From assembly GCF_900091445.1 (NCBI RefSeq), contig NZ_LT607733.1, positions 4,553,001 to 4,617,000 of the forward strand: DNA of 64,000 nucleotides, given 5' to 3'. The DNA is from Micromonospora echinofusca. GTDB lineage: Bacteria > Actinomycetota > Actinomycetes > Mycobacteriales > Micromonosporaceae. Below the pieces are notes generated by a model. That model searched no databases, was not told where the DNA came from, and saw nothing but the letters and a program-made list of their open reading frames with translations. Shown piece by piece: positions 4,686 to 50,855 of this stretch (within the stretch, counting starts at the first letter, position 1; each line of letters starts with the position of its first letter). Both the position numbers and the translations under genes were made by a program.

Positions 4686-4835
4686 GCTGTCCCATCCTTC
4701 CTCGGCATAGGCTGCGGGCATGATCTGCCGAGCGTGCCGGGCCAGGCGGCACGACGACTGCCCGGGGCGGAACTGGTGCGACTGCCAGCACCGTACCTCC
4801 CGACCCACCCCTCCGGTCACTGGTCCGGCCGGCGA

Positions 4836-5582
4836 ATGAGCGTCGGAATCCCGATCTCGGCGCTCTGGCCGCGACCGTCGGCGCGCCCGTTGGACGACGC
4901 CGCGCTCACCGCGCTCTACGGCCGGGTCGGCCGACCCCACCTGCGGGTCAACTTCGTGACCAGCGTCGACGGCGGCGTCTCCGTCGACGGCTACTCCGCC
5001 GGGCTCTCCGGGGAGCCGGACAAGCGCGTCTTCGGGCTGCTGCGCATGCTCTGCGACGCCCTGGTCGTCGCCGCCGGCACGCTGCGGCACGAGGGCTACC
5101 GGGCGGTACGCCTCGACGAACGGCGCCGGGCGTGGCGCCGCGAGCACGGCCTGCCCGAGTACCCGACGCTGGTCGTCGTCTCCGGCTCGCTCGACCTCGA
5201 CCCGGCGCAGGCCGCGTTCGCCGACGCGCCGGTGCGGCCCGTGGTGCTCACCCGGGCCGGCGCCACGGCGCCGCCCGGCCTGAGCGACGTCGCCGACGTG
5301 GTGCGCCGCGGCGACGACCGGGTGGACCTGGCGGCGGGCCTGGCCGAGCTGCGCCGCCGCGGGCTCGGCCAGCTGCTCTGCGAGGGCGGTCCGCAGCTGT
5401 TCGGCGCGCTCACCGCCGCCGACCTGGTGGACGAGGTCTGCCTCACCGTCGCCCCGCTGCTCGCCGGGGCGGGCCCGGGGCGGATCACCGCCGGCGACGC
5501 CAGCGACGTACGCCACCTGCCGCTGCGGCACGTGCTCGCCGCCGACGACGGCGTGCTCATGCTCCGCTACGCCCGCGACTGA
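4836..5582 (+). CDS. RibD C-terminal domain (pyrimidine reductase-like) protein
   Basis: This 248-residue protein has the dihydrofolate-reductase-like fold of the RibD reductase domain: NFVTSVDGGVSVDG near the N-terminus, DALVVAAGTLRHEGYRAVR, and LLCEGGPQLFGALTAADLVDE near the C-terminus. Such proteins use NAD(P)H; the classical member reduces the riboflavin precursor. Because it lacks the RibD deaminase domain and no other rib genes are nearby, a dedicated riboflavin role is uncertain and it may act on another substrate. It is transcribed divergently from the pRiA4b-like gene across a 150-bp gap. Confidence 0.85.
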   Translation: MSVGIPISALWPRPSARPLDDAALTALYGRVGRPHLRVNFVTSVDGGVSVDGYSAGLSGEPDKRVFGLLRMLCDALVVAAGTLRHEGYRAVRLDERRRAWRREHGLPEYPTLVVVSGSLDLDPAQAAFADAPVRPVVLTRAGATAPPGLSDVADVVRRGDDRVDLAAGLAELRRRGLGQLLCEGGPQLFGALTAADLVDEVCLTVAPLLAGAGPGRITAGDASDVRHLPLRHVLAADDGVLMLRYARD

Positions 5583-5724
5583 CCGTGGCCGGACGGGCAC
5601 CCTGCGGCTGAGGGCACCGCCGACGGCGTGGCGTCCGCCGCGTCGCGTGGCAACCTGTCGTACTCCTCGGGCAGGATGCAGGCGTGTGCCCCGACCGCGA
5701 CGACCAGCCGACCGGAGTTGCCCG

Positions 5725-7479
5725 ATGACTGACGACGGGTTCGACGGCCCGGGCGAGGCGGTCGGCCGGGTACTGGGCACCGCCGACGCCACCCCCCTGC
5801 AGTTCTGGACGGCGGTCTCCCCCGGCAGCTACCTCCAGCTCGACGACGTCGTGGTGACCCGGCGCGAGCTGCCCGACCGCGAGCCGGTGACGATCGCCGG
5901 GGTGGTCACCCAGGTGCGGGCCCGGCACGAGGGCGCCCAGTTCGAGTCCGACGTCTTCGCCATCGCCGACGGCACGCTGCCCGCCCAGGTGCAGGAGGCC
6001 GCCGAGATCACCACCACCCGCGTCGACCCGGAGCTCTACGTGCCGCCGTCGCCCGGCGCCGTGGTGCACCGCGCCGAGGGCGACGCCCGGGCGCGCGCGC
6101 TGCACTTCGACCGGATGGAGCGGCGCATCCCCATGGGCATGGGCCGCGACGGGGTGCCGGTCTACCTCAACGCCGACTTCCTCGACGGCAGCCGGGGCGC
6201 GCACGTGTCGATCTCCGGCATCTCCGGCGTCGCCACGAAGACGAGCTTCGCCACCTTCCTGCTCTACTCGGTGTTCCGCTCCGGCGTGCTGGGAGGCGAC
6301 GCGGTCAACGCCAAGGCGCTCATCTTCAACGTCAAGGGCGAGGACCTGCTCTTCCTCGACCACCCCAACACCCGGCTCGACGACGCCACCCGCGCCTCCT
6401 ACGCGAAGCTCGGCCTGGTCGCCGGTGCCTTCCCCGACGTGCGGGTCTACGCCCCGCCCCGGGTCGGCGACTCCTCCGGCACGCCCGACGTGAGCAGCCG
6501 CCTAACCGGGGTCGACAGCTTCTACTGGACGCTGAGCGAGTTCTGCGCCGACCGCCTGCTGCCCTACGTGTTCGCCGACGCCGACGACGAACGCCAGCAG
6601 TACACGATGGTGGTGCACTCGGTCGCCGCCCACCTGGCCCGTTACGCCCAGCCCGCCGACGGCGGGGTGAGCATCGACGGGGTGCGTCTCGGCTCGTACG
6701 CCGACCTGGTCGACCACATCGTCGAGCAGCTCAACGACGACGAGACCCGCTCCGACTGGGCCGGCAGCGCCGTCGGGCTGGGCACGGTCAACGCGTTCGC
6801 CCGGCGGCTGATCGGCAGCAAGAAGGACCTGTCCCGGCTGATCCGGGGCGACCTGGCCACCCGTCGCCCGCACAGCATCAACACCGCCGAGAGCGCCCAG
6901 GTCACCGTGGTCGACCTGCACAACCTCCCCGACCGCGCGCAGCGGTTCGTGGTCGGCGTGACGCTCAAGAGCGAGTTCGAGCGCAAGGAGAAGGCCGGCA
7001 CCGCCAAGCCGCTGCTCTTCGTGGTGCTCGACGAGCTCAACAAGTACGCCCCCCGCGAGGGCTCCTCCCCCATCAAGGAGGTGCTGCTCGACATCGCCGA
7101 GCGGGGCCGCTCCCTCGGGGTGATCCTGGTCGGCGCCCAGCAGACGGCGAGCGAGGTGGAGCGGCGCATCGTCACCAACTCGGCGATCCGGGTGGTGGGC
7201 CGGCTCGACCCGGCCGAGGCGTCCCGCCCGGAATACGGCTTCCTGCCGCCCGCCCAGCGGCAGCGCGCGCTGCTGGCCAAGCCGGGCACGATGTTCGTCA
7301 ACCAGCCCGACATCCCGGTGCCGCTCTGCCTGGAGTTCCCGTTCCCGGCCTGGGCCACTCGGGTCTCCGAGGCCGGCCGCGCCCCGTCCGAGACGCTCCG
7401 GTCGCTCACCCAGTCCGTCGACCCGTTCGCGGTGGTCGGCTCCGGCGGGGGCACCTCCGACGACGACATCCCCTTCTAG
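5725..7479 (+). CDS. HerA-like DNA translocase (HAS-barrel plus HerA/FtsK ATPase)
   Basis: This 584-residue protein has an N-terminal beta-rich region like the HAS barrel (QLDDVVVTRRELPDREPVTI), then an ATPase core. Its P-loop is unusual: GISGVATKTSF with Lys172, lacking the glycine normally before the lysine. Walker B is FVVLDELNKYAP with Asp436 and Glu437, followed by the sensor-like region LVGAQQTASEVERRIVTNSA. HerA proteins form hexameric rings that move along duplex DNA and drive the NurA nuclease. Here it heads a unit with sbcD, sbcC and a NurA-like gene, the partners found together in archaea. The ATG at 5725 has GGAG about 7 nt upstream. The specific role in this organism is inference. 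Confidence 0.85.
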   Translation: MTDDGFDGPGEAVGRVLGTADATPLQFWTAVSPGSYLQLDDVVVTRRELPDREPVTIAGVVTQVRARHEGAQFESDVFAIADGTLPAQVQEAAEITTTRVDPELYVPPSPGAVVHRAEGDARARALHFDRMERRIPMGMGRDGVPVYLNADFLDGSRGAHVSISGISGVATKTSFATFLLYSVFRSGVLGGDAVNAKALIFNVKGEDLLFLDHPNTRLDDATRASYAKLGLVAGAFPDVRVYAPPRVGDSSGTPDVSSRLTGVDSFYWTLSEFCADRLLPYVFADADDERQQYTMVVHSVAAHLARYAQPADGGVSIDGVRLGSYADLVDHIVEQLNDDETRSDWAGSAVGLGTVNAFARRLIGSKKDLSRLIRGDLATRRPHSINTAESAQVTVVDLHNLPDRAQRFVVGVTLKSEFERKEKAGTAKPLLFVVLDELNKYAPREGSSPIKEVLLDIAERGRSLGVILVGAQQTASEVERRIVTNSAIRVVGRLDPAEASRPEYGFLPPAQRQRALLAKPGTMFVNQPDIPVPLCLEFPFPAWATRVSEAGRAPSETLRSLTQSVDPFAVVGSGGGTSDDDIPF

Positions 7480-7486
7480 GGGGAGA

Positions 7487-7602
7487 CCGGTGAGCGCGAG
7501 GAGTGAGCTTGCGAGCCCCGCAGTCGCGAACGAAAGGCTGGCACCGGTGAGCGCGAGGAGTGAGCTTGCGAGCCCCGCAGTCGCGAACGAAAGGCTGGCA
7601 CC
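7487..7602 (+). repeat. 57-bp tandem repeat, two copies, between herA and sbcD
   Basis: Two identical 57-bp units start at GTG 7490 and GTG 7547, the second running directly up to the sbcD start. Each unit is exactly 19 codons and contains no stop in the frame read below. Related, diverged copies lie at 50770-50855 on the other strand. The same kind of interspersed sequence seems familiar from Micromonospora-type genomes (recollection, not searched). Confidence 0.9.
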
Positions 7603-7606
7603 GTGA
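7490..7606 (+). CDS. possible repeat-encoded leader peptide upstream of sbcD
   Basis: The two repeat units read as one 38-residue frame, MSARSELASPAVANERLAP twice, the second copy beginning with Val. GGGGGAG lies 4 nt before the GTG. The frame ends at a TGA that overlaps the GTG of sbcD (GTGA), the usual arrangement for translational coupling. Nothing in the peptide resembles a domain, so if translated it may only pass ribosomes from herA to sbcD. It may equally be a chance open frame within a repeat. Confidence 0.25.
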   Translation: MSARSELASPAVANERLAPVSARSELASPAVANERLAP

Positions 7607-8751
7607 AGATCCTGCACACCTCCGACTGGCACGTCGGCAAGGTCCTCAAGGGGCAGTCGCGGGCCGAGGAGCACAAGCGGGTCCTGGCCGGCGTGATCGA
7701 CGTCGCCCGCGCCGAGGCGCCCGACCTGGTCATCGTCGCCGGTGACCTCTACGACACCGCCGCCCCGACTCCGGAGGCCACCCGGCTGGTCACCCGGGCG
7801 CTGACCGCGCTGCGCCGCACCGGCGCCGACGTGGTGGCCATCGGCGGCAACCACGACAACGGCCAGGCCCTCGATGCGCTGCGACCATGGGCCGAGGCCG
7901 CCGGCATCACCCTGCGCGGCGGGGTCCGGGACAACCCCGACGAGCACGTCATCGACGGCACCACCGGCGGCGGCGAGCGGTGGCGGCTGGCCGCGCTGCC
8001 GTTCCTCTCCCAGCGCTACGCCATCCGCGCCGTGGAGATGTACGAGCTGACCGCCGCCGAGACCACCCAGACGTACGCCGACCACCTGGGCCGGGTGCTG
8101 GGCCGGCTGACGGAGAGCTTCACCGAACCGGACCGGGTGCACCTGGTCACCGCCCACCTGACCGTGGTGGGCGCGACCACCGGCGGCGGCGAGCGCGACG
8201 CGCACACCGTGCTGGGCTACGCGGTGCCCGCCACCGTCTTCCCGGGCACGGCGCACTACGTGGCGCTGGGCCACCTGCACCGCTCGCAGCGGGTGCAGGG
8301 CCCCTGCCCGATCCGCTACAGCGGCAGCCCGCTCGCGGTCGACTTCGGCGAACAGGAGAACGTGCCGTCGGTGACCGTCGTCGAGGTCACCGCGACCACG
8401 GCGGCGCAGGTGCGGGAGGTGCCGGTGACCGCCGCCACCACGCTGCGTACGGTCCGGGGCACCCTGGCCCAGCTCGCCGAGATGGACGTGCCGGACGCCT
8501 GGCTGCGGGTCTACGTGCGGGAGCAGCCGCGCGCCGGGCTGCGCGAGGAGGTGCAGGAGCTGCTCCCGCAGGCCCTGGAGATCCGGATCGACCCGGAGCT
8601 GGTGCCCGCCCCGGGCAGCGGCGCCCGGGTGGCGCAGCGGGCGGGCCGCTCGCCCCGGCAGCTCTTCGCCGACTACCTCGACAGCCGGGGGCACACCGAC
8701 GACGGGGTGCGGGAGCTCTTCGACGAGCTCTTCGAGGAGGTCGACCACTGA
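7603..8751 (+). CDS. sbcD: exonuclease SbcCD, nuclease subunit D (Mre11-like)
   Basis: This 382-residue metallophosphoesterase shows the Mre11/SbcD metal motifs in order: HTSDWHVGK (Asp8, His10), GDLYD near residue 47, GNHDN near residue 84, VTAHL near 183 and ALGHLHRSQ near 223. With SbcC it forms an ATP-driven nuclease that opens hairpins and trims blocked double-strand ends. The GTG start at 7603 directly follows the tandem repeat, whose terminal GAAAGG lies 8 nt upstream and probably acts as the ribosome site. The stop shares a base with the sbcC start (TGATG). Confidence 0.95.
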   Translation: MKILHTSDWHVGKVLKGQSRAEEHKRVLAGVIDVARAEAPDLVIVAGDLYDTAAPTPEATRLVTRALTALRRTGADVVAIGGNHDNGQALDALRPWAEAAGITLRGGVRDNPDEHVIDGTTGGGERWRLAALPFLSQRYAIRAVEMYELTAAETTQTYADHLGRVLGRLTESFTEPDRVHLVTAHLTVVGATTGGGERDAHTVLGYAVPATVFPGTAHYVALGHLHRSQRVQGPCPIRYSGSPLAVDFGEQENVPSVTVVEVTATTAAQVREVPVTAATTLRTVRGTLAQLAEMDVPDAWLRVYVREQPRAGLREEVQELLPQALEIRIDPELVPAPGSGARVAQRAGRSPRQLFADYLDSRGHTDDGVRELFDELFEEVDH

Positions 8752-11225
8752 TGCGGCCGATGCGGCTGGACATGGCGGGCTTCACCGTCTTCCGCGACGA
8801 GACCACGATCGACTTCACCGACGCCGACTTCTTCGCGCTGGTCGGGCCGACGGGCTCCGGCAAGTCGACGGTGCTGGACGCGATCTGTTTCGCCCTCTAC
8901 GGCACGGTGCCCCGCTGGGGTGGCGCCCGGGGCCTGACCAACGCCCTGGCGCCGTCGGCCACCGAGGCGCGGGTCCGGCTGGTCTTCGAGTCCGCCGGTT
9001 CCCGCTACGTGGCGACCCGGGTGGTCCGCCGCGACGGCCGGGGCAACGTCAAGACGGCCAACGCCGGATTGCAGCTGATGCCGGCCGGTTTCGACGTGAC
9101 CAAGCTCGACACCGGGCTGAGCCCGGAGGACCTCGGCGAGGTGGTGGCCGGCACCCCCGCCGAGATGGAGCAGGCGGTGCTGGAGGCGGTCGGGCTGCCG
9201 TACGAGCAGTTCACCAGCTGCGTGGTGCTGCCACAGGGGCAGTTCGCGGACTTCCTGCACGCCAAGCCGGCCACCCGGCAGCAGATCCTGGTCAACCTGC
9301 TGGGCCTCGGGGTCTACGAGGACGTGCAGAAGAAGGCGACCGCGCGGGCCGCGCAGGCCGAGGCGAAGCTGGAGGCGGTCGACCAGGCGCTCGCCGGGCT
9401 CACCGACGTCGACGACGCCGCGCTGGAGGCGGCCACCGGGCGGGTCGACCGGATGCGGGAGCTGGCGGGGGCGGTGGCGAGCGCCGTACCGGAGTTGGAG
9501 GCGGCCCGGGCGTCGGCGCGGGAGGCGGGCGCGGCCCTGGCGGCCCTCGACGCCGACCTGGCGGTGTTGACGGCCGTGCGCGCGCCGGACGGCGTGGCGG
9601 AGGTGGCCCGGGCGGTGGCGTCGGCGCGGGCCGGCGCGGACGAGGCGGCGACGGCGGTGTCGCTGGCCGAGGAGGGGGAGGAGAAGCTACGCGGCGAGCT
9701 GGCCACCGCCGGTGACGAGAGCGCGCTGCGGCTGCTGCTGCGGGCGTACACCGACCGGGAGAAGCTGGCCGGCGAGGCGGCGGCGGTCCGCGCGGCGGTG
9801 ACCGGGGCGCAGGCCGAGCACGGCGCGGCCGTGGCGGCGCTGGCCGAGGCGCGGGCGGCGGCCGAGCGGGCCGAGGCGGAGCTGGAGGCGGCCTTCCGCG
9901 CCCACGAGGAGGCGAAGGCGACCGACCAGGCGGTGGCGTTGCGCGCGCACCTGCGCGCCGGGGCGCCCTGCCCGGTCTGCGAGCAGACCGTCGCGACGGT
10001 GCCGGCGGTGCCGGCCGACTCGGCGGTGGCCGCCGCGACGGCGGCGGGACGGGCGGCGCGGGCCGCCAGCAAGGCCGCCCAGTCGGTGGTGCAGGAGCGC
10101 GACGGGGCGGCGCGGGAGCTGGAGCGGGTGCTGCTGCGCGCGCGGGCCCGGCAGGACCAGGTGCAGGCCCGGCTAGCCGAGCTGGACGACCATCTGGCCG
10201 GGGCGGCCGAGCCGGTGGTGCTGCGCCGCGAGCTGGACGACCACGCGCGGCTGCGCCGGGCGCTGGAGGAGTCGGCGGCGGCGGTGCGGGCCGGCCGGGA
10301 GGCCGCGCGGCGGGCCCGGGCGGCGGTGGACGCCGCCGAGGAGCGGTTGCGGGCGACCTGGCGCGCGTTCGACGCGGCCCGCGACGGGCTCGCCCGGTTC
10401 GGGCCGCCGACGGCGGACCGCGACGACCTGGGGGCCGCGTGGGCGGCCCTCACCGGCTGGGCCGGCGAGGAGGCGGAGCGTCGCCGCGCCGAGCGGGCCG
10501 GGCGGGCCGGGGCGGTGACGCAGGCCGAGGCGGCGGCCGCCGAGGTCGGCGAGCGCATCGCGGGCGTCCTCGCCGCCGCCGGGCTGCCGCCCGCCGACGA
10601 TCCGCTGCGCGCCACCGACCGCGCCCTCGAGCGGGCCGAGGCCGACCTGCGCGAGCTGGAGCGGCGCCGGGAGCAGGCTGGTGGCCTGCGCGAGCAGCGG
10701 GCCGGCTACGAGCGCGAGGCGCAGGTGGCCCGGGCCCTCGCGGGGCACCTGCGGGCCAACAACTTCGAGCGGTGGCTGCTCGCCGAGGCGCTGGACCTGC
10801 TGGTCGACGGCGCCTCGGGCATCCTGCGGGAGCTCTCCGGCGGGCAGTACGACCTGATGCACGACAAGGGCGAGTTCTTCGTGGTCGACCACCACGACGC
10901 GGGGTTGCGTCGGGGCGTTCGCACCCTGTCGGGCGGCGAGACCTTCCAGGCGTCGCTGGCGCTGGCGCTGGCGTTGTCGGAGCAGCTCGCCGGGATGTCC
11001 ACCACGGCGGCGAGCCTGGAGTCGATCGTGCTGGACGAGGGCTTCGGCACGCTCGACGCGGCCACCCTCGACACGGTGGCCGCCACGCTGGAGAACCTGG
11101 CCGCCCGGGGCGACCGGATGGTCGGTGTGGTCACCCACGTGCCGGCCCTCGCCGAACGCATCCCGGTCCGGTTCGAGGTCAGCAAGGACGCCCGGTCGGC
11201 CCGCGTCGAACGGACCGGCCGGTGA
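8751..11225 (+). CDS. sbcC: exonuclease SbcCD, ATPase subunit C (Rad50-like)
   Basis: This 824-residue SMC-like ATPase has Walker A GPTGSGKST with Lys38, a Q-loop region FTSCVVLPQGQFADFL, then long alanine/glutamate-rich coiled-coil arms. The zinc hook CPVC falls at residues 407-410, almost mid-protein. The C-terminal lobe has the ABC signature TLSGGETFQASLALALA and Walker B SIVLDEGFGTLD. It dimerises through the hook and works with SbcD on DNA ends. The ATG overlaps the sbcD stop by one base. It is shorter than E. coli SbcC (about 1050 residues), as is common in actinobacteria. Confidence 0.95.
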   Translation: MRPMRLDMAGFTVFRDETTIDFTDADFFALVGPTGSGKSTVLDAICFALYGTVPRWGGARGLTNALAPSATEARVRLVFESAGSRYVATRVVRRDGRGNVKTANAGLQLMPAGFDVTKLDTGLSPEDLGEVVAGTPAEMEQAVLEAVGLPYEQFTSCVVLPQGQFADFLHAKPATRQQILVNLLGLGVYEDVQKKATARAAQAEAKLEAVDQALAGLTDVDDAALEAATGRVDRMRELAGAVASAVPELEAARASAREAGAALAALDADLAVLTAVRAPDGVAEVARAVASARAGADEAATAVSLAEEGEEKLRGELATAGDESALRLLLRAYTDREKLAGEAAAVRAAVTGAQAEHGAAVAALAEARAAAERAEAELEAAFRAHEEAKATDQAVALRAHLRAGAPCPVCEQTVATVPAVPADSAVAAATAAGRAARAASKAAQSVVQERDGAARELERVLLRARARQDQVQARLAELDDHLAGAAEPVVLRRELDDHARLRRALEESAAAVRAGREAARRARAAVDAAEERLRATWRAFDAARDGLARFGPPTADRDDLGAAWAALTGWAGEEAERRRAERAGRAGAVTQAEAAAAEVGERIAGVLAAAGLPPADDPLRATDRALERAEADLRELERRREQAGGLREQRAGYEREAQVARALAGHLRANNFERWLLAEALDLLVDGASGILRELSGGQYDLMHDKGEFFVVDHHDAGLRRGVRTLSGGETFQASLALALALSEQLAGMSTTAASLESIVLDEGFGTLDAATLDTVAATLENLAARGDRMVGVVTHVPALAERIPVRFEVSKDARSARVERTGR

Positions 11226-11262
11226 GCGGGGCCGCGGCGCGCGCGACGGGAGGTCCGCTGCG

Positions 11263-12222
11263 GTGACCGATCCCCGGTTCTTCGTCGACGCGTGGGACCC
11301 GGCGTACGGCGCGTCGTTCGAGGCGTCCGGCGGCGGCCCCGCCGCGCCGAGCAGCGCCCAGGTCGACGCGGACGCCGAGCTGCCGGCGGTGGACTGGCGG
11401 GCGATCGGGCCGCGCTCCGACGTCCGGGCCCCCGACGTGGTGCTGCTCGTCGACGGGGTGCGCCGCATCGACGCGAGCGTGTGGACGGCCGAGGACGACG
11501 GCGCGTCCTTCCCCGGCCTCGCCGCGTCGTACGCCGCCGGCGTGGTCCGGTGCGACCTGGAGCGCGGCGCGGCACAGCTCGCCGGGGCGAAGGTGGGCCG
11601 GGGCCTGTTCACCGCCAGTCCGTCGGCGGTGGACGTGGTGGCCGGCAGCGTCCGCTACCCGGTGCACCGGGTGAGCGGCACGGGCGAGCTGAACAAGCTC
11701 CCGGCCGCCGTGCAGGGGCCGCTGACGGCGCTGGAGGTGGAGGTCTCGGGGGCGGCCCGCACCGACGGCGACCTGCTGGTGGTCGACGGCCCGCTGCGCA
11801 ACCGGCGGCAGCTGCCGCGCACCCTCGGCTACATCAAGACGCAGCACAGCCAATACCTGGACGCCCGGCTGACCGCCGTGGTCACCGGGTTGGCGGCCGG
11901 CGAGCGCTCCCCGGTGTTCAAGCTCGGCACGGCCTGGGGCGGCTGGTCGTGGTACCTGCGGCTGCCGGTGGCCCTCGGCGCGCCGTGGGCGGGCATCGTC
12001 CGGATGGAGTGCTCCGCCGAGCTGGGCATCGACGAGGCGGTGGGGCTCGCCGACCTGTCGCTGGTCACGCTGCCCCGGTTCGCGTCCACCCCCTATAAGG
12101 ACCCGCGGGCACCGCAGAACCTGATCCCGATCGCCGGCCTGGAGCGCCGGCTGCGGTCGCTGCTCGGCGACGCGCGGCTGCTGCACCGGGTGCTCACCAC
12201 CGCCGCCCGGGCCCGGCGCTGA
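11263..12222 (+). CDS. NurA-like nuclease domain protein
   Basis: This 319-residue protein has two spaced Asp-Gly motifs in the NurA pattern: VVLLVDGVRRIDASVW (Asp64) and DLLVVDGPLRNRR (Asp175), followed by LGYIKTQHSQYLD. NurA is an RNase H-fold 5'-3' nuclease that works with HerA in end resection. The C-terminal stretch QNLIPIAGLERRLRSLLGD also resembles the end of NurA proteins. GGGAGG lies 9 nt before the GTG start. It is 37 bp after sbcC in the herA-sbcD-sbcC unit, exactly where a HerA partner would be expected. The family call rests on motifs and context, not on a search; catalytic activity is inferred. Confidence 0.72.
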   Translation: MTDPRFFVDAWDPAYGASFEASGGGPAAPSSAQVDADAELPAVDWRAIGPRSDVRAPDVVLLVDGVRRIDASVWTAEDDGASFPGLAASYAAGVVRCDLERGAAQLAGAKVGRGLFTASPSAVDVVAGSVRYPVHRVSGTGELNKLPAAVQGPLTALEVEVSGAARTDGDLLVVDGPLRNRRQLPRTLGYIKTQHSQYLDARLTAVVTGLAAGERSPVFKLGTAWGGWSWYLRLPVALGAPWAGIVRMECSAELGIDEAVGLADLSLVTLPRFASTPYKDPRAPQNLIPIAGLERRLRSLLGDARLLHRVLTTAARARR

Positions 12223-13079
12223 TGGGCCGCAAGCGGGCGGCCGACACGGTGGCCGCGCGGGTGGACACCGGCCAGGCCGAGCTGGTGCCCGATCCGGACC
12301 GGCCGGGATCGTGGACCCTGCTGCTCGACGGCGCCCCGCAGTCGCACGTGGACCTGGCCGATCCCACGCACCTGGAGTTCGAGTACGTCCGGCGGCTCGC
12401 CGCCGCGATCGACCTGCTGGCCCCGGCCGGGGCGCCGCTGCGGGTGCTGCACCTCGGCGGCGGCGCGCTCACCCTGCCCCGCTACGTGGCGGCCACCCGG
12501 CCCGGCTCCACCCAGCGGGTCGTCGAGGTGGACGGCGCGCTCGTGGACCTGGTCCGCCGGGCCCTGCCGTGGCCGCCGGACCCCCGCCTCAAGGTGCGGG
12601 TGGCCGACGCCCGGGCGGTGCTCGCCGCCAGCCGGGACGCCAGCTACGACGTCGTGCTCGCCGACGTCTTCGCCGGTGCCCGCACGCCGGCGCACCTGAC
12701 CTCGGTGGAGTACGCCGCCGAGGTGGCCCGGGTACTGCGTCCCGCCGGTTTCCACCTGGCCAACGTGGCCGACGGCCCGCCGCTGCGCCACGCCCGGGCG
12801 CAGGTCGCCACGGTCCGCTCGGTGCTGCCGCGGGCCTGCCTCGTCGGCGACGCGGCGGTGCTGCGCGGGCGTCGTTACGGCAACCTGGTGCTGGTGGCCG
12901 GCCGGGTCGAGCCGCCAGTGCCGGAGCTGACCCGGCGCGCGGCCGGGGACTGGTTCCCGGGGCGGGTCCTGGCCGGCGAGGAACTCGACCGCTTCGCGGG
13001 CGGCGCGGCGGTGGTCCGCGACGTCGACGCCACCGACTCGACCCCGCCGCCGCCCGGGATCTTCTCCGTGGGTCGGTGA
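12222..13079 (+). CDS. spermidine synthase-like SAM-dependent methyltransferase
   Basis: This 285-residue Rossmann-fold protein has the glycine-rich binding motif LHLGGGALTLPRYVAATRPG followed by VVEVD, then DARAVLAASRDASYDVVLADVF, the layout of spermine/spermidine synthase-like proteins. The N-terminal beta region of true spermidine synthases is much reduced, so the substrate is unknown and aminopropyl transfer is doubtful. Its ATG overlaps the NurA-like stop by one base (TGATG), placing it last in the resection unit. The coupling may be functional or incidental. Confidence 0.8.
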   Translation: MGRKRAADTVAARVDTGQAELVPDPDRPGSWTLLLDGAPQSHVDLADPTHLEFEYVRRLAAAIDLLAPAGAPLRVLHLGGGALTLPRYVAATRPGSTQRVVEVDGALVDLVRRALPWPPDPRLKVRVADARAVLAASRDASYDVVLADVFAGARTPAHLTSVEYAAEVARVLRPAGFHLANVADGPPLRHARAQVATVRSVLPRACLVGDAAVLRGRRYGNLVLVAGRVEPPVPELTRRAAGDWFPGRVLAGEELDRFAGGAAVVRDVDATDSTPPPPGIFSVGR

Positions 13080-49548: not shown

Positions 49549-50796
49549 TCAGCGGCGGGCCGCCGGCTCCTCGGCGGTGATCGCCGGTGCGGCCTCCGCC
49601 GCCGGCAGGGTCACCGTGACCTCCAACCCCCCGCCGGCCTGAGCGATCACCTTCACGGTGCCGCCGTGCGCGTCGCAGACCGCCCGGACGATGGAGAGCC
49701 CGAGACCGGAGCCGCGTGCGCCGGTACGCTCCCGGCCGCCGCGCCGGAACGGCTCGAACAGGCCGGGCACGTCGGCCTGGTCCACCTCGAAGCCGGTGTT
49801 GCCCACCACCAGCCACGACCGGCACCCGTCCGACCCCGTACGCACCCAGAGCCGGCCGTGCAGATGGTTGTAGCGGATCGCGTTCTCGATCAGGTTGCCC
49901 GCCAGCCGGTCGAGCAGCCCGGGATCGCCGACGACCGGCGCGGACTCCAGCGAGGTCTGCACCCGTAGCTTGATCCGCTCCACCTCCCGGCGTACCGCCG
50001 ACAGGGCGTTGGCGGTGCCGGCGGCGAGGTCGCACTCGGTGCGCCGGCCCAGCCGGCGGCCCGCCTGGGCCTCGCTGCGGGCGAGCACCAGCAGGGCGTC
50101 GACCAGCCCGTTGGCCCGCTCGGAGGCGTCCCGGACCACCATGGCCATCCGGCGGTACTCGACCGTGTCCGCCTCGTCGTCGCTGAGCGTCACGTCGATC
50201 TCGGTGCGCATCACCGCGAGCGGGGTCCGCAGCTCGTGCGAGGCGTTCGCCACGAACCGCTTCTGCGCCTCGAACGCGGCGGCTATGCGGTCCAGCATCT
50301 CGTCGAAGGTCTCCGCCAGCTCCGCGACCTCGTCGTCGGCGCCCGAGTAGCCGATGCGCTGGTCCAGCGTCGTCTCGCCGAGCCGGCGGGCGGTGGCGGT
50401 GACCTGGTGCAGCGGGCGCAGCGCCCGCCCGGCGACCGCGTACGCGCCGGCCACCCCGACGACGCTGATCGCCAGCAGCGCCACCAGCCCCTTGACCAGC
50501 AGCTCCCCGCTGGCGGCGTCGACCAGCTGACGCTGCCACTGCGCGGCGTCCATCGACCGGCCGTCGGCCAGCACCACCGTGGTGCCGGGCAGCAGCTCGT
50601 CGGTCGGTCGCAGCGCGTCGCGGACCAGCAGCCAGGCCAGCAGCACCAGGATCGCGCCCGCGCCGACCAGCAGCACCCCGTTGAGCAGGGTCAACCGCAG
50701 CCGCAGCGTGGGCCGCAGCCGGGCCCGCCGGCTCGTGGCGTCGGCCCTCTTCCGCGACCGCCCAGCCTTCAGCGCCGGCTCACTCCTCGCGCTCAC
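49549..50796 (-). CDS. sensor histidine kinase
   Basis: This 415-residue membrane kinase has a helix near residues 33-60 (LTLLNGVLLVGAGAILVLLA), a short extracytoplasmic sensor, a second helix (GLVALLAISVVGVAGAYAVA) and a HAMP domain. The H-box RFVANASHELRTPLAV with His187 follows, then the catalytic domain with NLIENAIRYN and GSGLGLSIVRAV. The signal is unknown. Its first six residues, MSARSE, come from the interspersed repeat that also lies before sbcD. The GTG start overlaps the stop of a 20-residue repeat-encoded frame. Confidence 0.93.
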   Translation of the reverse strand: MSARSEPALKAGRSRKRADATSRRARLRPTLRLRLTLLNGVLLVGAGAILVLLAWLLVRDALRPTDELLPGTTVVLADGRSMDAAQWQRQLVDAASGELLVKGLVALLAISVVGVAGAYAVAGRALRPLHQVTATARRLGETTLDQRIGYSGADDEVAELAETFDEMLDRIAAAFEAQKRFVANASHELRTPLAVMRTEIDVTLSDDEADTVEYRRMAMVVRDASERANGLVDALLVLARSEAQAGRRLGRRTECDLAAGTANALSAVRREVERIKLRVQTSLESAPVVGDPGLLDRLAGNLIENAIRYNHLHGRLWVRTGSDGCRSWLVVGNTGFEVDQADVPGLFEPFRRGGRERTGARGSGLGLSIVRAVCDAHGGTVKVIAQAGGGLEVTVTLPAAEAAPAITAEEPAARR

Positions 50797-50855
50797 CGTG
50801 CCACCTTCGTTCGCGACTGCGGGGCTCGCAAGACCGGCTCGCTCCTCGCGCTCAT
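50770..50855 (-). repeat. two diverged copies of the interspersed repeat at the regulator/kinase junction
   Basis: On the minus strand a unit starts at ATG 50855 and a second, partial unit at GTG 50796. Both open with GAGCGCGAGGAG; the first continues with TTGCGAGCCCCGCAGTCGCG as in the tandem copies at 7487-7602. The partial copy runs into the kinase coding sequence. Confidence 0.88.
50793..50855 (-). CDS. possible repeat-encoded linker peptide between response regulator and kinase
   Basis: The frame MSARSEPVLRAPQSRTKVAR starts at an ATG overlapping the response-regulator stop (ATGA) and ends at a TGA overlapping the kinase GTG (GTGA). GGAG lies 8 nt before the ATG. It could carry ribosomes from regulator to kinase. 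The peptide has no recognised domain. Confidence 0.25.
   Translation of the reverse strand: MSARSEPVLRAPQSRTKVAR

Follow-up and report, generated by a model that had tools for sequence, protein, structure and literature searches.

We analyzed a stretch of 64,000 nucleotides (hereafter the window) of the Micromonospora echinofusca genome, which is 7.0 Mb long and available as a single contig (NZ_LT607733.1, positions 4,553,001 to 4,617,000). An earlier note, made from the sequence letters, had claimed four consecutive genes for DNA end resection in it. Four open reading frames (ORFs) were indeed present where the note had placed them, head to tail and all on the + strand: HerA, a HerA/FtsK-type hexameric ATPase/translocase of the Deinococcus type (5725..7479, 584 aa, ATG at 5725); SbcD, an Mre11-type nuclease (7603..8751, 382 aa); SbcC, a Rad50-type ATPase (8751..11225, 824 aa); and NurA, an RNase H-like nuclease of the bacterial type (11263..12222, 319 aa, GTG start at 11263). 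The start of SbcC is most likely the ATG at 8751, with one base in common with the SbcD stop codon (TGATG); this overlap and the short gaps are a hint, suggestive only, of co-transcription and joint action. The G+C content of the four-gene cluster is 75.5%, that of the window 74.8%.

The note had proposed profile hidden Markov model searches as checks on HerA and NurA. Neither protein had a convincing match in Pfam or NCBIfam, including the region 5725-7479 for which such a search had been suggested; the Pfam NurA model, PF09376, suggested for 11263-12222, matched neither the window NurA nor anything else in the whole genome. Both identities nevertheless stand on other evidence. The window HerA matched Deinococcus radiodurans HerA (7f6d_B) over nearly its full length (phmmer E 7.4e-151; residues 10-308 and 317-550), with K172, T173, D207, D436, E437, R444 and R501 aligned to K175, T176, D220, D487, E488, R495 and R552 of drHerA. 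The window NurA matched the D. radiodurans HerA-NurA structure 7f6d with E 1.2e-18, and a profile built from the window-type NurA branch recovered both drNurA and TmNurA. It has the RNase H-like NurA fold, with 25% identity to drNurA by structure alignment, and its D64, K192 and R282 correspond to the catalytic D53, K201 and R309 of drNurA; among 49 NurA sequences D64 and K192 were invariant and R282 was at least 90% conserved. Altogether, ten residues with catalytic, ATPase or translocation roles were compared with those given in PMC9960219, and all were kept.

SbcD and SbcC were identified, as the note had named them, by domain models and motifs. SbcD matched the Pfam family Metallophos (E 6e-12) and the sbcd subfamily model (175.5 bits versus a cut-off of 77.65), and contains the phosphoesterase motifs DWH, GDLYD, GNHD and GHLH. 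SbcC exceeded the Pfam cut-offs for AAA_23 (E 1e-19) and for SbcC_Walker_B (E 2e-10). Among NCBIfam models TIGR00618 sbcc scored best, with 271 bits, which is below the cut-off of that model (478.5). The protein is a split ABC ATPase with a zinc hook (CPVC at residue 407) and a Walker A motif, GPTGSGKS, at residue 32. In genomes coded f64 and f56 by family, SbcC of three loci (L191-L193) is ∼3.3-3.5 kb long versus 2.5 kb in the window, which suggests that the coiled coil is longer or that an insert is present.

Conservation of the unit was assessed in three genome samples, covering HerA, SbcD and NurA, and in fetched stretches of DNA, from which the position of SbcC is known. The family sample included 61 genomes of Micromonosporaceae, searched for all three proteins. 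The class sample had 246 genomes, 44 of them with a HerA match; 16 were used, the rest having E >1e-8. In the phylum sample (159 genomes, 55 with a HerA match) 35 genomes with 36 loci were used, the rest having E >1e-40. Split matches were merged by hand (e.g. HerA of G189 and G195; SbcD of G159, G193 and G215), and for HerA of G160 the larger piece of a split match was taken.

HerA and SbcD were present in 61 of the 61 family genomes and NurA in 58. In 60 genomes HerA was followed on its own strand by SbcD (within 147 bp in 55, at 2.6-9.6 kb in 5), and in one SbcD was on another contig; in 54 genomes NurA came still further downstream, with contig and strand unchanged. The HerA-linked SbcD was nearly always the sole SbcD of these 61 genomes: with split-gene pieces set aside, a second SbcD match beyond E 1e-4 was seen in one genome, and two further second matches (6e-5 and 6e-4) were short. 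A strong HerA was present in 16 of the 246 class genomes, and in all 16 SbcD was no more than 221 bp away, with NurA downstream at 3.6-5.0 kb. None of these 16 genomes belonged to two of the families, f2 (of the same order) and f4; we take these, as a guess, to be Mycobacteriaceae and Streptomycetaceae. At the level of phylum, each of the 35 loci with HerA and SbcD on one contig had SbcD downstream and in the same orientation (within 300 bp in 29), and NurA was found in two positions among the 36 loci: upstream of HerA in 23 and downstream in 10, the remaining 3 having no same-contig match in this search. SbcC followed SbcD in all the stretches fetched for these samples (L160-L197 and L199) except L189, where the stretch ends within SbcD.

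We also examined named loci, the best 80 of at least 581 relatives; the query was of the type with NurA last, so this set is skewed to that form. The order HerA-SbcD-SbcC-NurA was present in 53 of the 80. Of the remaining 27 loci, 21 end no more than 211 bp past the last gene found, and six (L086, L110, L118, L125, L126 and L127) lack part of the unit despite at least 2 kb beyond. The titles of the named loci include Micromonospora, Actinoplanes, Glycomyces, Acidimicrobiia, Nitriliruptorales and Gemmatimonadota; the window NurA shares 97-98% identity with proteins labelled Micromonospora. Furthermore, a cyanobacterial conjugative plasmid carries NurA-HerA-sbcD-sbcC. Recurrence of the gene order is far beyond chance, and the conservation in relatives on which the note had staked its proposal was borne out, by the named loci for all four genes and by the genome samples for HerA, SbcD and NurA.

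Two kinds of unusual loci should be mentioned. Varied genes (2.3 to 14 kb) split HerA from SbcD in L180-L190, both still on one strand; when the ORF starts in these 11 inserts were inspected by eye, with no family search, no common gene was seen. A second, highly divergent NurA-HerA-SbcD-SbcC cluster (L197; genome G146, contig C15) is present beside the standard one in the same genome, its HerA being 29% identical to the window HerA.

A HerA tree was built from 70 loci, with close duplicates and NurA-less loci removed; in it, NurA-first (23) and NurA-last (47) loci made two sides of one branch with Shimodaira-Hasegawa-like approximate likelihood ratio test (SH-aLRT) support of 99, i.e. a single change of arrangement versus a mean of 19.6 in shuffles. 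Two NurA-first rows, L197 and L179, had very long branches. When drHerA was included and three long rows were omitted, the branch had SH-aLRT 93 and drHerA joined between both groups. In a tree of 130 SbcD sequences, where 50 of 72 named SbcDs were kept, linked and unlinked labels changed 4 times versus 34.6 in shuffles; the HerA-linked SbcDs were largely separate from the unlinked ones, in several lineages rather than one clade, with a few long rows. Pairwise distances of the four proteins were correlated with rho of 0.77-0.90 (62 clusters; 61 of 82 loci were kept after thinning), whereas permutations gave no more than 0.27.

A candidate promoter of the PafBC/RecA-NDp type, TGTCGTAC-N8-CAGGAT, lies at 5656..5677 on the + strand and ends 47 bases before the HerA ATG. 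A shared element was seen by eye in an alignment of upstream regions, then widened to the pattern TGTCR-N11-YANNNT and tested with controls; the choice of the pattern was post hoc, from Micromonosporaceae and Actinoplanes sequences. The window match is the sole one on either strand in 64 kb. Of 114 loci, 52 had the pattern ahead of the gene that opens the cluster (44 before HerA and 8, out of 21, before a NurA that comes first). Among control gene starts, taken by a simple ORF picker on the named loci, it was present at 13 of 462; the opposite strand gave 1 match and other spacings (N6-N17) gave 0 to 7. Micromonosporaceae loci had the motif in 27 of 36 cases, other loci in 25 of 78, with 25 different sequences; the latter are the more independent evidence because the pattern was chosen on Micromonosporaceae and Actinoplanes. 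The mycobacterial PafBC (RecA-NDp) regulon (PMC5656591, PMC8223512) shares TGTCR and the exact distance from it to a -10-like hexamer; the consensus in print is tTGTCRgtg-8nt-TannnT (PMC5656591). In our loci gtg is replaced (by TAC in most Micromonosporaceae), and Micromonosporaceae have CANNNT for TANNNT, as in the window, with its CAGGAT hexamer. As another candidate we considered LexA; no CGAAC-N4-GTTCG box was found in 29 upstream regions (the window and 28 loci), and the published PafBC pattern was likewise found in none of the 29. The motif enrichment suggests damage induction of the unit via a candidate PafBC-type promoter.

The element was also seen at unlinked actinobacterial SbcD genes (L200-L239): in 15 of 40, in 14 of them with G after TGTCR, and in 14 of the 15 at 29-34 bases before the SbcD match. 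Judging from such upstream sequences, sbcCD in general may be a part of a PafBC-type damage response. PafBC is activated by single-stranded DNA (ssDNA; PMC11804915), and its regulon in Mycobacterium smegmatis includes AdnAB and RecBCD (PMC8223512).

We think it probable that the four genes form a chromosomal core operon whose products process DNA double-strand ends, probably damage-induced via a PafBC-type promoter, and acting beside AdnAB. SbcCD would recognise a break, and its endonuclease would clear hairpins, adducts or bound protein. A HerA hexamer and a NurA dimer would then load on the cleaned duplex end; HerA would translocate along the duplex by ATP hydrolysis, feeding NurA, whose pin-like element (described for drNurA) would split the duplex so that NurA could cut the 5′ strand and leave RecA a 3′ tail. 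DNA damage would probably switch the operon on independently of LexA. The genome has an AdnAB-like pair, two neighbouring UvrD-PDDEXK proteins (1,181 and 1,177 aa), in parallel with which the unit would work; the idea that the unit replaces AdnAB was rejected for this genome on account of this pair. Matches to PDDEXK_1 (PF12705), which may or may not be AdnAB, were present in 246 of 246 class genomes.

The proposal builds on the protein identities, catalytic residues, fold, conserved order, co-divergence, promoter-motif enrichment and AdnAB-like pair observed above. Its enzymology is carried over from D. radiodurans and archaeal work, and we also infer cooperation of SbcCD with HerA-NurA as well as damage induction. 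The reading of the earlier note is supported in part, as to identities and as to a conserved unit; a resection machine is the best prediction of its function because of the orthology to the biochemically studied D. radiodurans HerA-NurA, the linkage to SbcCD and the PafBC-like promoter.

Several observations weigh against such a role. A D. radiodurans nurA-herA double knockout was reported to be ∼10-fold more resistant at high UV and to mitomycin C (PMC9960219), and a study of Thermococcus kodakarensis expressed doubt about a role in resection (PMC12977600). The NurA-binding residues D78, E80 and D81 of drHerA are D, F and A in the window HerA, so that D78 alone is kept (as D76), with other acids nearby; these three residues are said to align poorly outside Deinococcus (PMC9960219). 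Among ten basic interface residues of drNurA, seven were compared and three are still basic (K299, K306 and R336). As to the promoter, the full TGTCRGTG-N8-TANNNT was found at 0 of the 114 cluster upstream regions (TGTCGTAC-8-CAGGAT in the window), the -10 hexamer starts with C in Micromonosporaceae, and 62 of the 114 loci had no match even to the wide pattern, including 7 of 7 Gemmatimonadota-type loci and both Glycomyces; the 14-kb stretch of the AdnAB-like pair had no motif match either. Finally, 5 of the 61 family genomes and 6 of the 36 phylum loci have other DNA, 2.3-14 kb, between HerA and SbcD.

These inserts could be explained if the cluster was a mere neighbourhood of two independent repair pairs, adjacent and with a promoter in common, which do no joint work. 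The genes between HerA and SbcD in some genomes, 2.3-14 kb of them, are apparently unrelated, and Thermus has nurA-hepA without adjacent sbcCD (PMC5448004). However, the HerA-then-SbcD order stays on one strand while NurA switches side, and the linked SbcDs are mostly in lineages of their own; we consider mere neighbourhood unlikely.

A defence role was the alternative raised in the earlier note. In such a system, comparable to HerA-SIR2, HerA-DUF4297, TdpAB or MADS, HerA-NurA would degrade incoming phage or plasmid DNA and SbcCD would sense or open ends. A 452-kb plasmid of Streptomyces sp. BB1-1-1 (L247) carries HerA-SbcD-SbcC-NurA by TIGR02680/TIGR02678/DUF2397 genes, which we take to be Wadjet-like, and by an ImmA/IrrE protease; the copy on a conjugative plasmid points the same way. 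On the other hand, near-universality in the family (HerA and SbcD in 61/61, NurA in 58/61), co-divergence of the four proteins and a repair-type promoter motif weigh against it. HerA relatives were found in 2 of 50,697 phage records, both with <30% identity, and in 6 of 72,556 plasmid records, one being a chromosome-sized record of 11.8 Mb. PADLOC models gave weak scores: HerA had at best 33.7 bits (mad8), NurA had no match, and the matches of SbcC (93.7 bits, mad3) and SbcD look like shared domains. Of eight window neighbours, only a SpeE-like gene (mad2, 38.5 bits, E 1.5e-10) and a TAP-like hydrolase (C3a206) had PADLOC matches at E 1e-5; strong full-length model matches and the system-level gene complement of MADS or of a HerA-type defence system were absent from the unit and these eight neighbours. 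Given the near-universality in the family and the rarity in phages and plasmids, we find defence quite improbable.

Also improbable, in our opinion, is that HerA-NurA limits or edits recombination (trimming, anti-recombinase action or fork processing) instead of making RecA tails, with SbcCD acting on the same palindromic or blocked structures: the raised resistance upon nurA-herA loss in D. radiodurans (PMC9960219) and upon Mre11-Rad50 loss in Haloferax (PMC12977600), and an AdnAB-like pair available for resection in this genome, speak for it, whereas drNurA-HerA resects 5′ tails in vitro (PMC9960219) and viability of Sulfolobus islandicus needs resection activity (PMC4351679).

The predicted end-processing operon can be compared with known systems. 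TdpAB, HerA-SIR2 and HerA-DUF4297 also combine a HerA-type hexamer with a partner nuclease, and a TdpAB chain has a NurA-like fold; they differ from the window unit, whose proteins score weakly against them in PADLOC. These systems have other partners and, to our knowledge, no linkage to SbcCD.

Archaea have a herA-mre11-rad50-nurA operon (PMC4351679, PMC2288612) with the same four functions; PMC4351679 names them in the order seen in the window, though not as a gene order. In D. radiodurans NurA-HerA (PDB 7f6d, 7wrw, 7wrx; PMC9960219), HerA and NurA are homologous to ours, with the same catalytic, Walker and translocation residues and the same fold; it differs in being described as a two-protein system, with NurA 25% identical and interface residues partly kept in the window proteins. 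A link of SbcCD to HerA-NurA in D. radiodurans was stated to be open (PMC4663267). The hepA (HerA) cluster of Oceanithermus profundus, a bacterial HerA with SbcD and SbcC downstream, is a precedent in print (PMC5448004); it differs in being in one genome, with NurA presumably before HerA as in Thermus, and in the sections consulted PMC5448004 describes neither a promoter nor a wider distribution. According to a review, Actinobacteria are one of the groups with NurA and HerA homologues (PMC8708640). Thus, to the question raised in the earlier note, whether the bacterial form had been characterised, the answer is a partial yes: structures and biochemistry of bacterial HerA-NurA exist (PMC9960219), and the four-gene cluster of Oceanithermus was noted (PMC5448004). 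The open-licence literature searched yielded no account of the actinobacterial unit, of its two arrangements or of its promoter.

The authors of PMC5448004 explained the Oceanithermus cluster by recruitment of SbcCD in O. profundus. As the unit is broadly distributed, we infer that an older unit, with loss in Thermus, is at least as likely. One could speculate further, with a fair amount of doubt, that HerA, NurA and SbcCD are one ancestral bacterial machine, of which the Deinococcus/Thermus nurA-herA pairs, the basis of the bacterial experiments we found, are reduced versions with misleading knockouts; short ssDNA released by NurA might activate PafBC and so switch the actinobacterial operon on without RecA/LexA.

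The range proposed in the earlier note, to 13079, took in a fifth gene, similar to spermidine synthase (12222..13079, + strand; Pfam PF01564 E 1e-6, NCBIfam MFS_SpdSyn E 8e-29); the four genes hold together, and the fifth has no conserved linkage. Its ATG overlaps the NurA stop codon by one base, and it is possibly co-translated with NurA in this genome. Such a gene directly follows NurA in 8 of the 53 named loci with NurA, all 8 titled Micromonospora; it is not part of the conserved unit. On the other side of the unit, a RibD_C-domain gene is located at 4806-5582 of the window, and 18 of 73 named loci have a RibD_C gene within 600 bp upstream of HerA; each of these 18 bears the label Micromonosporaceae or Glycomycetaceae.

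The gap between HerA and SbcD contains 2.1 perfect tandem copies of a 57-bp repeat (7486..7603, + strand; Tandem Repeats Finder). This element belongs to a repeat dispersed through the genome, where it has 43 matches that are frequently arranged in tandem; other copies lie at window positions 50778-50854 (- strand) and at the junction of the AdnAB-like gene pair (genome contig 530313-530360). In two sampled congeners the gap is 15 and 16 bp, and the repeat is probably an insertion, no conserved component of the unit.

The Pfam NurA model misses this branch of NurA; surveys with PF09376 would therefore underestimate the system in bacteria. A word search of one survey of bacterial repair genes (PMC6452273) gave no mention of NurA. 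End resection by HerA-NurA in cells is disputed; with a conserved unit in mesophilic bacteria, carrying a damage-type promoter motif, both the question of resection and that of the link to SbcCD become testable in ordinary bacteria.

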